DNA of 14,034 nucleotides from Candidatus Iainarchaeum sp. (GTDB taxonomy: Archaea > Iainarchaeota > Iainarchaeia > JAGGVJ01). Both the position numbers and the translations under genes were made by a program. Where the stretch lies: contig JAGGVJ010000034.1 in NCBI GenBank assembly GCA_021158055.1, forward strand, positions 1 to 14,034, read 5' to 3'. This document shows, in pieces, positions 4,295 through 9,992 of this stretch. Within the stretch, counting starts at the first letter, position 1, and the number at the start of each line of letters is the position of its first letter. The notes under the pieces were generated by a model, which made no database searches, was not told the origin of the DNA, and worked only from the letters and a program-made list of their open reading frames with translations.

Positions 4295-5743
4295 ATGATA
4301 ATAAAATACACTTTAGCAAAACTTGCTGAGGCTCCCATACTTATAAAAAACCACATAGAAAAAAACGGTGAAAAACTCAAATTCAGGCGACCATATTTTC
4401 GCATTAAAAAATATGTGGACAATTTTTTGTTAGGTGAAAAACTTGGCAACATAGAAAACCGACTCATCATATTACCAGGTCTAAGGGGTGTTGGAAAAAC
4501 AACTCTGGTTTTTCAGATATATGACTATCTAAAAAATGTAAAAAAAATAGATCAAAGCAGACTGTTATATTTCTCGGCAGATGAATTAAAAATATGCACC
4601 GACAACAAAATAATCGACGTAATAAACACCTTTATCCAGGACATACATCAAACAACAGCAATCAACCTTGATGAAAACCTATTTATCTTTGTAGATGAAG
4701 CGCATTTTGACAATGACTGGGCGCAAGCAGCAAAAATAATGTTTGACAAAAGCAAAAAAATATTTTTGATATTTACAGGGTCTTCTGCACTAAATCTTGA
4801 ACTTAATGTGGACATTGCAAGAAGAGCTTTAAAAGAAACAATTTTTCCAATGAATTTTTCAGAATACATTACATTCAAATACAATATTTTCCCCCCAGCA
4901 CACACAGCGGAAAGCATAAAACAATTATTGTTTGCACCAGATGACTTTTCATTAAAAGATGCACAAAATAAAGAAAACGAACTGATAAAAACAACACTTT
5001 CAATTGGAAAACCAGTTGAAAAAGAACTTATGTCTTTTTTATGCTGCAATGGTTTTCCATTTGGATTAACTACAGAACCAATCGAAACCCACCAAAAGCT
5101 TTTCAATGTAGTTGAAAGAATTGTAGAAAAAGACATTTTTTCTATACAATCATTCAACACCGACACAAAAGACACAATCTCACGAATAATTGTTTTCCTT
5201 GCCCTTCAAAAACCCGGCGGGACTTCTGACTCAAAACTTGCTCAAAGACTTGAAACTTCACCAACACTCATAAGAACCATTCTTGAAGTTTTAGAAAAAA
5301 GCCATTTAATATTCAGCATCAAACCATATGGCGGCGCTGGAAAAACAGTAAGAAAACCATGGAAATACTATTTTCTTTCACCTTCAATAAACGCAGCAAT
5401 AAGATCTAAACTTGGAGCATACAACACAACAGACAGAGACATGCTTGGCACTTTGGCAGAAAATCTTGTCGCTGCAACTTTTTTCAGGATGAAAGAAACA
5501 ACAAATATACCCACAGGAATATTTTATGACTCCAATAAAGGCGGTGTTGATTTTTTACTCAAAGACATTAACAACAACATAATTCCAATAGAAGTTGGCA
5601 TTGGCAAAAAAAACAAAAAACAAATCAAAAACGCCATAAAAAACTACAAATCAAAATACGGTTTTGTTATATGTAACATTGAAAAAATAACAAAAAAAGA
5701 CAACATAATTTTCATTCCATTAACCACTTTTTCATTCAGCTAA
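4295..5743 (+). CDS. AAA-type ATPase with DUF4143-like C-terminal region (COG1373 type)
   Basis: 482 residues. Walker A is G62-LRGV-G67-K68-T69 and Walker B is LFIFVDEAH with D134/E135, followed by a sensor-like FTGSS (160-164). This is the pattern of the COG1373/AAA_14 ATPases. The middle (about 235-375) fits the helical and winged-helix part seen in DUF4143 proteins, including SKLAQRLETSPTLIRTILEVLEKSHLI. The C-terminus has GGVDFLL (416-422) and IPIEVG (430-435), resembling a restriction-nuclease fold, but the usual E-x-K is E433-V-G. Such proteins are common in archaeal genomes with no settled role. The gene is clearly more AT-rich than its neighbours, stands alone between AT-rich spacers and has its own promoter, which suggests horizontal acquisition. 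Confidence 0.87.
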   Translation: MIIKYTLAKLAEAPILIKNHIEKNGEKLKFRRPYFRIKKYVDNFLLGEKLGNIENRLIILPGLRGVGKTTLVFQIYDYLKNVKKIDQSRLLYFSADELKICTDNKIIDVINTFIQDIHQTTAINLDENLFIFVDEAHFDNDWAQAAKIMFDKSKKIFLIFTGSSALNLELNVDIARRALKETIFPMNFSEYITFKYNIFPPAHTAESIKQLLFAPDDFSLKDAQNKENELIKTTLSIGKPVEKELMSFLCCNGFPFGLTTEPIETHQKLFNVVERIVEKDIFSIQSFNTDTKDTISRIIVFLALQKPGGTSDSKLAQRLETSPTLIRTILEVLEKSHLIFSIKPYGGAGKTVRKPWKYYFLSPSINAAIRSKLGAYNTTDRDMLGTLAENLVAATFFRMKETTNIPTGIFYDSNKGGVDFLLKDINNNIIPIEVGIGKKNKKQIKNAIKNYKSKYGFVICNIEKITKKDNIIFIPLTTFSFS

Positions 5744-5765: not shown

Positions 5766-5790
5766 CAAACACAATAAAAAATAAGAAAAC

Positions 5791-5833
5791 TTTTTAAATA
5801 TGAATGGTCGTATATATGAATGTGAATTCATAT
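5791..5833 (+). promoter_or_regulatory. Promoter and three-half-site operator of the chaperone operon
   Basis: TTTTTAAATA at 5791-5800 is a TATA box predicting transcription start near 5821, about 10 nt before the regulator's ATG. ATATGAAT occurs at 5798-5805 and 5814-5821, and its inverse ATTCATAT at 5826-5833. The latter two form a perfect 8-4-8 inverted repeat over the predicted start of transcription; its final AT is the first two bases of the start codon. The placement suits autorepression by the ArsR-family protein encoded directly downstream, with loss of binding under stress. Confidence 0.7.
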
Positions 5834-6323
5834 GAACGATGATTTAAGGCAAAGACAAAATCTTTTAATGCAGGCATCTTTGTTCAAACTGCTCGGGGAC
5901 ACAAACCGGCTTCGTATAATCAGGATAATCAGCTATGAGCCGTCAAGCGTTTCCAACATATGCTGCGAACTCAAGCTTGAACAAAGCCTTGTTTCACACC
6001 ACCTATCAAATCTGCGAAAATTCAACGTCGTATCCTCGCAGCGGAACAACAAACAAATAATTTACTCAATAAAAAGAGACATGTTAAGCGAAGCACTGGA
6101 TCTTTTGGATCACTTCCTTGAACGGATAGAAACAGAAACAACCCTTGAAAAACTTCGCTGGAAAGAACTTGAAAGCAAGCACCGAAAAGAAAAAGAAATT
6201 GAAGCTGAAATTTACAGAAAAGGACCAGAGGCAAAAAAGCAGGAAGAAAAATACGAAGACACGGATGAATTTTCAAACAACCAATATGAATTCAAAAAAG
6301 ACATCTTAGAGCTGATCAGATGA
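5832..6323 (+). CDS. ArsR-family winged-helix regulator, probable heat-shock repressor of the grpE-dnaK-dnaJ operon
   Basis: 163 residues. The ArsR-type domain spans about 12-98: LLGDTNRLRIIRII, then the helix-turn-helix with LEQSLVSHHLSNLRKFNVV (49-67), then the wing with NNKQIIYSI. After it comes a charged helical tail (98-163) beyond the usual ArsR length, perhaps for dimerisation. In the expected register, the cysteines of the arsenite-sensing ELCVCD motif correspond to Ser39 and Ser41, so metal sensing by that site is unlikely. Known archaeal heat-shock repressors Phr and HSR1 have related winged-helix folds. This gene is first in the operon, overlaps grpE by ATGA and has palindromic sites at its promoter, so I infer an autoregulated repressor of Hsp70. 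The stress signal is not visible. Confidence 0.9.
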   Translation: MNDDLRQRQNLLMQASLFKLLGDTNRLRIIRIISYEPSSVSNICCELKLEQSLVSHHLSNLRKFNVVSSQRNNKQIIYSIKRDMLSEALDLLDHFLERIETETTLEKLRWKELESKHRKEKEIEAEIYRKGPEAKKQEEKYEDTDEFSNNQYEFKKDILELIR

Positions 6324-6865
6324 ATAAAAATAACTTAAAACCCCCACTTCAAGATGAAAATAAAAACAATAGCAAAACAAAAAAAGGAAACAAAGAGGAA
6401 ACCGCGGAAAAAACAACAAAAACAAAAGAACAGGAAGAAAAAATAAACGAACTTGAAGAACAACTGCAGAGAACAACTGCTGACTTTGAAAACTACAAAA
6501 AATGGGTAGATCGCCAGACAAGCGAACAAATCCAGTTTGCAGGGGAAAAAATACTCAAAAAACTCATTGACTTCTACGATGACCTGGAACGCGTAATAAA
6601 CGCTTCAAAAATCCAGTCCTCAAAAGAAATTATTGAAGGCCTTGAGCTTTTGGACAAAAAATTCAAAAAACTGCTTGAAGAAGAAAACGTAAAACCGATG
6701 AACTGCATCGGGCAACAATTTGACCCGTACTTTCACGAGGCATTCGCCCAGGAAAAAGGCAAAGAAGAGAACATCATACTCGAGGAACTTCAAAAAGGAT
6801 ACTTTCTCAACTCACACGTATTAAGACACGCAAAAGTCAAAGTGTCCCAAAAGCAAAAAGATTAG
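6320..6865 (+). CDS. grpE: Nucleotide exchange factor GrpE
   Basis: 181 residues. GrpE releases ADP from DnaK and so drives the chaperone cycle. Residues 1-38 are a charged disordered tail, 38-120 the long coiled coil (KINELEEQLQRTTADFENYKK, DFYDDLERV at 84-92), and 122-176 the C-terminal beta domain with FDPYFHEAF and GYFLNSHVLRHAKVKVS, matching the GrpE signature. Cys128 is the only cysteine. The start ATG shares ATGA with the stop of the regulator gene, implying translational coupling. dnaK begins 65 bases after its stop codon. Confidence 0.95.
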   Translation: MNKNNLKPPLQDENKNNSKTKKGNKEETAEKTTKTKEQEEKINELEEQLQRTTADFENYKKWVDRQTSEQIQFAGEKILKKLIDFYDDLERVINASKIQSSKEIIEGLELLDKKFKKLLEEENVKPMNCIGQQFDPYFHEAFAQEKGKEENIILEELQKGYFLNSHVLRHAKVKVSQKQKD

Positions 6866-6900
6866 AAAACAAAAACAAACAAATGGAAAATAAAAAAAAA

Positions 6901-6925
6901 TTTAAAAAGAAAAAATAACGGGTGA
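6901..6925 (+). promoter_or_regulatory. Possible internal promoter and Shine-Dalgarno before dnaK
   Basis: TTTAAAAAG (6901-6909) in an A-rich spacer could be an internal TATA box for dnaK. GGGTGA (6920-6925) is a good Shine-Dalgarno five bases before ATG 6931. The box would start transcription very near the ATG and lose the Shine-Dalgarno, so read-through from the operon promoter is more likely to supply translated dnaK mRNA. Confidence 0.35.
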
Positions 6926-6930
6926 AAAAA

Positions 6931-8805
6931 ATGGCAAAAGAAAAAATAATCGGAATAGATCTTGGAACATCAAACTCTCAGGCATCAGTGTTCATGGGTG
7001 GAAAACCGACAATCATACCAAGTGCTGAAGGCGCAACCGTTGCGGGAAAAATGTTTCCGTCAGTTGTGGCGTTCACAAAAGACGAACAACTTCTTGTCGG
7101 CGAACCTGCAAGAAGACAAGCAGTGACAAACCCGGCCGGAACAATAATGGCTGCGAAAAGAAAAATGGGAACCGACTTCAAATTCGAAGTGCACGGCAAA
7201 AAATACACCCCGCAGCAAATATCCGCATTCATACTCCAGAAAATAAAAACAGATGCTGAAGCATTCCTTGGAGAACCGGTTAAAAAAGTAGTCATAACAG
7301 TTCCCGCTTACTTTAATGACAACCAAAGGCAGGCGACAAAAGACGCCGGAGAAATCGCAGGACTTGACGTAGTGCGAATTATAAACGAACCAACAGCAGC
7401 ATCCCTTGCATACGGCGTTGACAAAGGAGACACAGAACAGAAAATACTTGTATTTGACTTTGGAGGCGGAACACTTGATGTGACCGTGCTTGAATTCGGA
7501 GACGGGGTCTTTGAAGTAAAATCAACTTCCGGCGACACAAAACTCGGCGGGACAGACATGGATGCTGCCCTTGTTGACTACATCGTCGCCGAGTTCAAAA
7601 AAGAAAGCGGAATCGACCTCAAAGAAGACGACATGGCAATGCAGAGGGTCCGGGAAGGAGCTGAAAAAGCAAAAATTGAACTTTCAACTGTTCTAAGCAC
7701 AGAAATCAACCTGCCCTACATTTCCGGCCCAAAGCACCTTACCTTGAACCTTAAAAGAGCAAAGCTTGAGGAACTGGTAGCACCAATCCTTGAAAAATGC
7801 AAAAAACCAATTGAACAGGCTGTAAAAGATGCCAAAATCAAAAAAGACAAGATAGACAAAGTCATTCTTGTGGGCGGGCCGACCAGGATGCCCATAGTTC
7901 AAAAAACTGTTGAAGACATCATGGGCAAAAAAGTAGAAAAAACAATCGACCCCATGGAATGCGTTGCATCAGGAGCCGCAATCCAGGGAGGGATACTTGC
8001 AGGAGAACTGAAAGACATCGTGCTTCTGGATGTCACTCCGCTGACCCTCGGGATAGAAACCCTTGGAGGCGTCTCAACACCGCTGATTGAAAAAAACACG
8101 ACAATCCCTGCAAAAAAATCACAGATCTTTTCCACTGCGGCAGACATGCAGACAGCCGTGACAATCCACGTGGTCCAGGGAGAACGGCCGATGGCTGCAG
8201 ACAACACAAGCCTTGGGACATTCAACCTTGAAGGAATCCCCCCTGCTCCAAGAGGAGTGCCTCAAATAGAAGTCACTTTTGACATTGACGCAAACGGGAT
8301 AATCAACGTCAGCGCAAAGGACAAGGCAACAGGAAAAGAACAAAGCATAGCCATAACTGCTTCGACAAAACTTTCAAAAGACGACATAGAAAAAATGGTA
8401 AACGAAGCAAAAAAGCACGAAAAAGAAGACGAAAAGAAAAAACACGAAATAGAAATCATGAACAACGCAGACACCCTGCTTTACACGTCTGAAAAAACAA
8501 TTGAACAGTTCAAGGACAAAATAAGCGACGAACAAAAGACAAAAATAACCGAAGCAAAAAAAGTCCTTGAAGAAGCAATAAAAGAAAAAAACCCGGAAAA
8601 AATTGAAAAAGAAAGCGAAAACCTTTCAAAAGCAGTGCAGGAAGTCGGGGCCCAGCTATACCAGCAGGCAGCAAGTGAAAGCGCTGCGGCAGAACAAAGC
8701 AAATCTGCAGAAACAAAAACCGAAAAAGGAACTGACGACGAAAAAGTTGTTGACGCTGAGTACAAAGTGAAAGACGACGAAAAGGAAACCAAAGATAAAA
8801 AATAA
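6931..8805 (+). CDS. dnaK: Chaperone protein DnaK (Hsp70)
   Basis: 624 residues. DnaK is the ATP-dependent chaperone that binds exposed hydrophobic segments with DnaJ and GrpE. The nucleotide-binding domain shows phosphate-1 GIDLGTSNS (8-16, Ser where GTTNS is usual), [23 protein letters not shown], phosphate-2 [11 protein letters not shown] and adenosine [11 protein letters not shown] (311-321). The linker is [19 protein letters not shown] (362-380), followed by the substrate-binding beta domain and the helical lid from about 490. The tail KVVDAEYKV (605-613) resembles the conserved DnaK C-terminus. The segment after KRKMG lacks the roughly 24-residue insertion of proteobacterial DnaK, as in Gram-positive and archaeal forms. 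A GTG at 6922 could add three residues, but it lies inside the Shine-Dalgarno GGTGA, so ATG 6931 is preferred. Confidence 0.98.
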
Positions 8806-8855
8806 AATCAAACAAAAGAAATGAAAAAGCACCAAACTCAGCAGACGTGAACAAC

Positions 8856-9992
8856 ATGCCAGAAGACTACTACAAAATATTAGGGGTGGAAAAAGGAGCA
8901 ACTCCGGAAGAAATAAAAAAGAAATACCGAACGCTTGCAAGAAAATACCACCCTGACGTCAACCCCAACGACAAAACCGCTGAAGCAAAATTCAAGGAAA
9001 TAAATGAGGCGTTTGAAGTACTTGGGAACCCGCAAAAACGCGCAAACTATGATCAGTTCGGGCAAGCAGGTCCCGGAATGGGCAGAGGCGGGTTTGGAGG
9101 TTTCGGGGGTTTCAACCAGGCAGACTTTTCGCAGTTTGATGACTTGTTCAGCGGTTTCGGTGACATCTTCAACGTATTTTCCGGAGGCAGAAGAAGACAC
9201 GGACCCCAAAGCGGCGCAGACCTGCGGTACGACTTAACCATTGAACTTGAAGAATCGTTCAGCGGAATCAAAAGCAAAATAGAACTGCCGAGAACAGAAA
9301 CCTGCGGCAGATGCAATGGAAACGGAGCAGAACCGGGAACAAGCCTCAAGACCTGCCCTGACTGCAACGGAACAGGAGAGGTAAAACAAACAAGGAGAAC
9401 ACCCCTCGGGCAATTCGTGCACATCACAATGTGCCACAAATGCAACGGAAGCGGAAAAATAATCGAAAACCCATGCAGTGAATGCCACGGGGAAGGAACT
9501 GTACGAAAAACAAGAACCATTGAAATAAACATACCAAAAGGAGTTGACAACGACTCTCACCTGAAAATCTCAGGGGAAGGAGAAGCCGGAACCCGGGGCG
9601 GGCCGTCCGGAGACCTGTACATCGTGATTCACGTAAAGCCGCACAAGACATTTGAGCGGTACGGAAAAAACCTTTACTGCAAAAGAACGATCAGCCTTAG
9701 CCAAGCTGTTCTCGGAAGCGAAATAGAAGTTGACACAATAGAAGGAAAAGCAAAGCTGAAGATACCTTCCGGAACACAAAGCCACACAGTATTCAAGATG
9801 CGCGGGCAGGGAATGCCTGACCTGCACAACGGAAAAAGAGGAGATCAATTAGTCAAAATTGAAGTTCTCATTCCGACGAAACTAAACAAAAAACAAAAAG
9901 AAATGTTTGAAGAGTTTTCAAAAGACAAAACCGACCCTGTTCAAGATACAAAAAAAGGCTTTTTTGAAAAACTCAAAAAAATATACCAATAA
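8856..9992 (+). CDS. dnaJ: Chaperone protein DnaJ (Hsp40, type A)
   Basis: 378 residues. DnaJ delivers clients to DnaK and stimulates its ATPase. The J domain (4-68) has HPD at 32-34. A Gly/Phe-rich region (70-113) follows, then four CxxCxGxG repeats with C150/C153, C167/C170, C193/C196 and C207/C210 binding two zinc ions, then the C-terminal substrate-binding domains (about 218-345) and a short basic tail. All hallmarks of a complete type A DnaJ are present. GTG at 8847 is in frame but forms part of the Shine-Dalgarno CGTGA (8846-8850), five bases before ATG 8856, so ATG is the better start. It is the last gene of the operon, 50 bases after dnaK. Confidence 0.98.
   Translation: MPEDYYKILGVEKGATPEEIKKKYRTLARKYHPDVNPNDKTAEAKFKEINEAFEVLGNPQKRANYDQFGQAGPGMGRGGFGGFGGFNQADFSQFDDLFSGFGDIFNVFSGGRRRHGPQSGADLRYDLTIELEESFSGIKSKIELPRTETCGRCNGNGAEPGTSLKTCPDCNGTGEVKQTRRTPLGQFVHITMCHKCNGSGKIIENPCSECHGEGTVRKTRTIEINIPKGVDNDSHLKISGEGEAGTRGGPSGDLYIVIHVKPHKTFERYGKNLYCKRTISLSQAVLGSEIEVDTIEGKAKLKIPSGTQSHTVFKMRGQGMPDLHNGKRGDQLVKIEVLIPTKLNKKQKEMFEEFSKDKTDPVQDTKKGFFEKLKKIYQ

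Follow-up and report, generated by a model that had tools for sequence, protein, structure and literature searches.

The window analysed here, a stretch of 14,034 nucleotides that constitutes one entire contig of a 1.15-Mb archaeal genome (95% complete, contamination estimate 0.05%), carries the genes arsR, grpE, dnaK and dnaJ in this order on the forward strand. It is proposed that they form a self-repressing Hsp70 operon under the control of an ArsR regulator descended from the operon-leader ArsR autorepressors of Fe-S, redox and metal genes present in DPANN archaea, an explanation to which, taken as a whole, we give a probability of about 0.72. Thus, the window ArsR would very probably be the dedicated autorepressor of arsR-grpE-dnaK-dnaJ, and the operon appears, very probably, to have been rewired to a borrowed on/off switch used by none of the 112 related Hsp70 loci examined. 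The evidence on the operon, its operator, the recognition helix and placement of the regulator, the loss of cysteines and the foreign DnaK comes from comparative sequence analysis, and from this analysis we infer DNA binding, repression, a single transcript and the signal.

The first-pass annotation of this DNA had described the order regulator-grpE-dnaK-dnaJ with an ATGA overlap between the first two genes, and this description holds: the open reading frames, whose coordinates were checked, lie as described, and their Pfam and NCBIfam assignments are clear (Table 1). Two candidate starts exist for dnaK, GTG 6922 and ATG 6931, the latter being more typical. A gap of 56 nt separates grpE from dnaK, and the TATA-like sequence located ahead of dnaK could act as a separate promoter. 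The G+C content is 0.425 in the operon and 0.406 in the rest. The regulator is the sole ArsR of its kind detected in the window's genome. Just 5' of arsR, on the same strand, Pfam identifies an AAA_14/DUF4143 ATPase gene (4295-5743); genes with this DUF4143 combination are frequently mobile, and transcription might read through from this one into the operon.

Table 1. Genes, predicted promoter elements and candidate operator sites of the arsR-grpE-dnaK-dnaJ locus (window positions).
Feature	Positions	Strand	Description
TATA-like box CTTTTTAAATA	5790-5800	+	Read from the sequence
Weaker putative operator copy ATATGAATGGTCGTATATAT	5798-5817		3 mismatches; 16 bp upstream of the main site
Wider inverted repeat TCGTATATATGAAT-gtga-ATTCATATGAACGA	5808-5821/5826-5839 (arms)		Spans the arsR start codon
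Second TATA-like stretch	5810-5819		
Main predicted operator ATATGAATgtgaATTCATAT	5814-5833		Perfect palindrome, ATATGAAT-GTGA-ATTCATAT; -18 from the arsR ATG
arsR	5832-6323	+	163 aa; ArsR/SmtB-family winged-helix regulator
Charged helical tail of ArsR	6123-6320 (codons)	+	Residues 98-163, ~65 residues; in none of the homologues found
grpE	6320-6865	+	ATGA overlap with arsR; Pfam GrpE 1.5e-41
TATA-like AATTTAAAA ahead of dnaK	~6898-6906 (within 6890-6931)		
dnaK (Hsp70)	6922-8805	+	Pfam HSP70 1.8e-224; closest DnaKs from Aenigmatarchaeota
dnaJ	8847-9992	+	J, zinc-finger and C-terminal domains all complete; Pfam DnaJ 5.1e-28, DnaJ_C 9.4e-52

The regulator belongs to the ArsR/SmtB superfamily, in agreement with its initial description as an ArsR-type winged-helix protein, since it matches Pfam HTH_5 (2.7e-11; 43.6 bits against a cut-off of 22) and NCBIfam HTH_metalloreg (NF033788; 65.7 bits against a cut-off of 55). 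The serines noticed earlier at the metal-site cysteine positions are S39 and S41, in alpha3, where the sequence reads S39-V40-S41 and no Cys-X-Cys is present. R82, M84, F95 and R98 fall, in an ungapped alignment, on CzrA 84, 86, 97 and 100, which we take to be the alpha5 metal ligand positions (Asp/His), and the protein thus appears to lack both alpha5 ligands of the CzrA/SmtB type and the alpha3 Cys site. Further on than the alpha3 positions, next to the recognition helix EQSLVSHHL (residues 50-58, of the EQSxVSH type), stands a vicinal pair, C44-C45, which the first-pass annotation had missed. In DPANN homologues with an EQS-type helix a cysteine is found at position 64 in 32 of 40 sequences and at the C-terminus in 37 of 40, an arrangement that suggests a thiol or Fe-S sensor of Fe-S assembly; the window protein has F64 and no C-terminal cysteine.

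Matches of homologues to the window ArsR stop near residue 100. The long tail that follows had been predicted to be helical, and AlphaFold, run on the single sequence, models it as a helix, with residues 101-130 as the best block (pLDDT 82-92); the mean over the ArsR model is only 60, a quality insufficient for searching with the fold. In the ArsR tree the window protein occupies a long, poorly placed branch. The regulator has lost the sensory cysteines of its relatives and gained a charged, predicted helical tail, so that its signal is most likely not a metal. The earlier guess of a non-metal signal is thereby favoured, there being no recognisable metal ligands and most sensory cysteines having gone.

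Taking into account the general geometry of archaeal promoters, transcription of arsR is predicted to start at about 5818-5823, leaving a 5' leader of some 10-14 nt. The main predicted operator, also absent from the first-pass annotation, overlaps both this predicted start and the arsR start codon, and an exact match to ATATGAATgtgaATTCATAT occurs only once in the 1.15-Mb genome, at the site itself. Pairs of sites spaced by 16 bp, as formed here with the weaker copy, are also found at other DPANN ArsR promoters. Local shuffles of the promoter region matched the inverted repeat in 47 of 2000 trials, which is not rare for such AT-rich DNA; this significance being weak, the case for the operator rests on comparative evidence.

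This evidence was obtained by fixing the window palindrome beforehand as the query and running it over loci fetched for other reasons. Good matches lay nearly all at ArsR genes. With at most two mismatches to ATATGAA-N6-TTCATAT allowed, the operator (ATATGA-N8-TCATAT) was found within -150 to +80 of the ORF start at 37 of 62 other DPANN ArsR-homologue loci, where shuffles led to an expectation of 1.0. In those 37 loci most sites lie at precisely -18 and/or -2, two offsets that differ by 16 bp; across the same loci, 46 matches fell in 14.3 kb of ArsR promoter regions versus 3 in the other 183 kb. Presence of the motif follows the recognition helix, since it accompanies 33 of the 40 homologues with EQSxVSH and 4 of the 19 without it (Fisher p 8.5e-6). 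The window ArsR shares both the helix and the operator (0 mismatches, at -18) with this group, and this coincidence makes it very probable that the protein binds the promoter of its own gene, and with it that of the operon.

The operator-bearing homologues lead operons for nifS (cysteine desulphurase), sufC, merA-like (mercuric reductase) and rubrerythrin genes, and further ones for thioredoxin, thioredoxin reductase, the FTR1 iron permease and metal ATPases, the names of the led genes having been checked for seven homologue operons. The EQSxVSH autorepressor group comprises loci L002-L030 and L227-L256. Descent of the window ArsR from these operon leaders is part of the explanation favoured above, and the C64 and C-terminal cysteines that it lacks are present in most, not all, members.

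The surroundings of grpE elsewhere are of a different kind. In the phylum group that includes the window's genome, GrpE was found in 58 of 87 genomes, all 58 in its class, and grpE loci from this group together with samples of Nanoarchaeota and Aenigmatarchaeota gave 112 distinct loci. The gene-neighbourhood check suggested with the initial description, which looked for conservation of the ArsR-grpE adjacency in relatives, went against it: an ArsR occupies the hrcA position in 0 of these 112 loci from three DPANN phyla, and among ArsR matches in 527 genomes of Nanoarchaeota and Aenigmatarchaeota none was seen, on comparison by eye, to adjoin a listed grpE. The adjacency has therefore been seen in one genome only and is not a general archaeal arrangement. 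Thus, of the idea of a dedicated Hsp70 repressor, what stands is that the regulator leads a complete DnaK operon and has an operator of a conserved type on its own start codon, but not its extension to archaea at large.

A different winged-helix gene lies beside grpE in 50 of 56 loci of the class, 21 of 32 of Nanoarchaeota and 3 of 24 of Aenigmatarchaeota. It encodes a protein of about 135-145 aa, is almost always divergent from grpE, and is not covered by any dedicated Pfam or NCBIfam model; a structure predicted for a Woesearchaeal winged-helix protein was of middling quality (pLDDT 67). Between this gene and grpE, the palindrome GTTGAYTTNAARTCAAC is present in 28 of 32 Nanoarchaeota loci (at most 2 mismatches, 0.2 expected) and TTGTYTAAANNNTTTARACAA in 35 of 56 loci of the class (at most 3 mismatches, 0.4 expected), both being group-specific and neither occurring in other groups. 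These palindromes were derived from the same regions in which they were counted, so the counts describe rather than test them, although the effect size and the absence across groups are convincing. The family (L034-L100, L122, L123, L129-L158, L171, L175 and L191) has the look of the usual regulator of Hsp70 in DPANN archaea, and the likeness of the window ArsR to HrcA, which the first-pass annotation had stressed, is one of position only, that position in DPANN archaea being usually held by this divergent family. In six Nanoarchaeota loci (L131, L135, L137, L141, L142 and L150) GTTGAYTTNAARTCAAC is kept at the grpE promoter with no adjacent winged-helix gene, which suggests a regulator acting in trans. 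The window's genome contains no clear member of the family (best own-genome match, E 0.03), and the possibility that the window operator is one of the grpE-linked palindromes was rejected, as GTTGAYTTNAARTCAAC and TTGTYTAAANNNTTTARACAA have at least 5 mismatches near the operon. In two Bacillota MAGs (L106 and L109) a gene of about 520 aa, chaperonin-like and by eye of archaeal type (group II), directly precedes grpE in the Hsp70 cluster.

Archaeal Hsp70 sets have been borrowed from bacteria. The window DnaK is 79% identical to its nearest relative, from Aenigmatarchaeota, and nests within this phylum with support 100/99; a constraint that keeps it with the class of its genome is rejected (AU p 0.0044; this group was defined once the first tree was known). 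RadA, which is encoded on the same contig and has no second copy in the genome, falls within the class to which the genome belongs (97/90), its nearest relative being that of genome G002 (70%). Given these two placements, the Hsp70 genes were probably gained horizontally. The nearest BLAST relatives of GrpE come from Nanoarchaeota and those of DnaJ from bacteria or Aenigmatarchaeota, so no single donor is evident for grpE, dnaK and dnaJ together. Both GrpE and DnaK are absent from G002 and from ten family f2 genomes of the class, all of them small and incomplete. The simplest reading is that the Hsp70 was probably acquired from, or shared with, Aenigmatarchaeota. The window operator was not found in the hsp70 promoters of those Aenigmatarchaeota nearest in DnaK.

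In the proposed mechanism, an ArsR dimer would bind the palindrome at 5814-5833 and probably also its weaker copy, covering the stretch from the first TATA-like box to the start codon and blocking RNA polymerase in the manner described for Phr. This would shut off arsR itself and the co-transcribed grpE-dnaK-dnaJ. A stress signal would lower the DNA affinity of ArsR, freeing the promoter and allowing expression of the operon; later, the repressor, remade along with the chaperones, would re-accumulate and turn the operon off again. For this arrangement to arise, ArsR would have been set before Hsp70 genes probably gained from Aenigmatarchaeota. As to the signal, our favoured guess, held at somewhat less than even odds, is proteotoxic or thermal stress, with the tail as the sensor and contact with the DnaK system as a possible route. 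A fuller version, tentative and in our judgement rather doubtful, is that a lineage with a foreign Hsp70 built an HrcA-like loop from a redox/Fe-S ArsR, dropping the cysteine sensor and adding a helical tail that, perhaps by being a client of DnaK/DnaJ, senses chaperone load.

The main rival on the signal is that a thiol sensor has been kept, with C44-C45 beside the recognition helix, and that oxidative, sulphide or metal(loid) stress switches on Hsp70, just as it presumably does the Fe-S and redox operons of the relatives. A cysteine stands at position 44 in 24 of the 60 sequences aligned, and the relatives lead rubrerythrin, thioredoxin, thioredoxin reductase, MerA and nifS genes, but the far more conserved C64 and C-terminal cysteines are gone in the window protein, which has a new tail instead, and there are no alpha5 metal ligands. 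We consider this explanation rather unlikely. Less probable again is that ArsR only regulates itself, its overlap with grpE being incidental and dnaK-dnaJ being transcribed mainly from an internal promoter after grpE. The TATA-like sequence and the gap ahead of dnaK would fit this, as would an adjacency limited to one genome; against it stand the start/stop overlap with grpE, the short gaps, the common strand and the operator on the first promoter, and the fact that the operon-leader ArsRs of this group head operons that they presumably control.

Two other explanations have very little probability. A foreign contig placed in the genome bin by an assembly or binning error would account for a DnaK that groups with another phylum, but the low contamination estimate, the similar G+C content of operon and remainder and, above all, the single RadA of the right class on the same contig make such an artefact highly improbable; misbinning of the contig was rejected on the RadA grouping, and the ArsR-grpE adjacency is accordingly not a binning artefact. 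That the window exemplifies a conserved HrcA-like regulator, with ArsR-grpE general in archaea, would agree with a gene position like that of bacterial hrcA. Within the DPANN sample (the class, Nanoarchaeota and Aenigmatarchaeota) it is refuted by the absence of the arrangement from every locus compared and by the different, mostly divergent winged-helix gene that many of them carry.

The preferred reading, a self-repressing operon under a recruited ArsR, offers a defined candidate protein-operator pair amenable to in vitro assays. The comparison has in addition brought to light a family that resembles a standard Hsp70 regulator of DPANN archaea, with operators of its own. Since the same position is filled by at least two unrelated predicted repressors, the replacement of regulators becomes open to study. 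If the tail does sense chaperone load, a dedicated repressor of Hsp70 would have evolved independently in archaea.

Among known systems, a 2022 review lists just two regulators of the archaeal heat-shock response, Phr and HSR1 (PMC9133787). Phr of Pyrococcus furiosus binds over the transcription start, and HSR1 of Archaeoglobus fulgidus is encoded by the first gene of a chaperone operon and recognises a palindrome that precedes this gene (PMC9133787); both belong to arCOG01684 (PMC5852551). The window ArsR shares with them an archaeal ArsR-like fold and autoregulation (PMC9133787, PMC5852551), the latter being predicted in its case. Its putative operator overlaps the predicted transcription start, as does the Phr site, and is a promoter palindrome, as is that of HSR1. 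However, it is not Phr by profile (16.0 bits with NCBIfam NF053602, cut-off 320), its operator differs from the HSR1 site CTAAC-N5-GTTAG and from the Phr boxes, and it heads a DnaK set, whereas the targets of Phr and HSR1 are hsp20 and AAA+ ATPase genes. A search of the open-access literature yielded no account of an archaeal DnaK operon with an ArsR gene at its head, and nothing on DPANN Hsp70 regulators.

The HrcA/CIRCE system resembles the window, as far as prediction goes, in having a dedicated repressor as the first gene before grpE-dnaK-dnaJ and a palindromic operator, but HrcA is an unrelated protein, twice as long, without a representative among the Pfam or NCBIfam matches of the window, and the operator ATATGAAT-N4-ATTCATAT is not CIRCE. 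The DPANN grpE-linked winged-helix proteins share with the window ArsR the place beside grpE and conserved palindromes of their own, although they form another family, are usually divergent and have GTTGAYTTNAARTCAAC or TTGTYTAAANNNTTTARACAA as putative operators. The closest likeness is to ArsR/SmtB proteins. The winged helix aligns without gaps to CzrA over residues 15-83, as in a relative of CzrA, SmtB and HlyU, and, as in the operon-leader autorepressors of this superfamily, a palindromic operator lies over the promoter of the regulator, itself the first gene of the operon presumably controlled. The window ArsR departs from CzrA and SmtB in the missing alpha3/alpha5 metal ligands, in its charged helical tail of about 65 residues and in having Hsp70 as its target. 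Taken together, it would be a variant of the ArsR operon-leader autorepressors that has acquired another target and in which the sensor region has been replaced.
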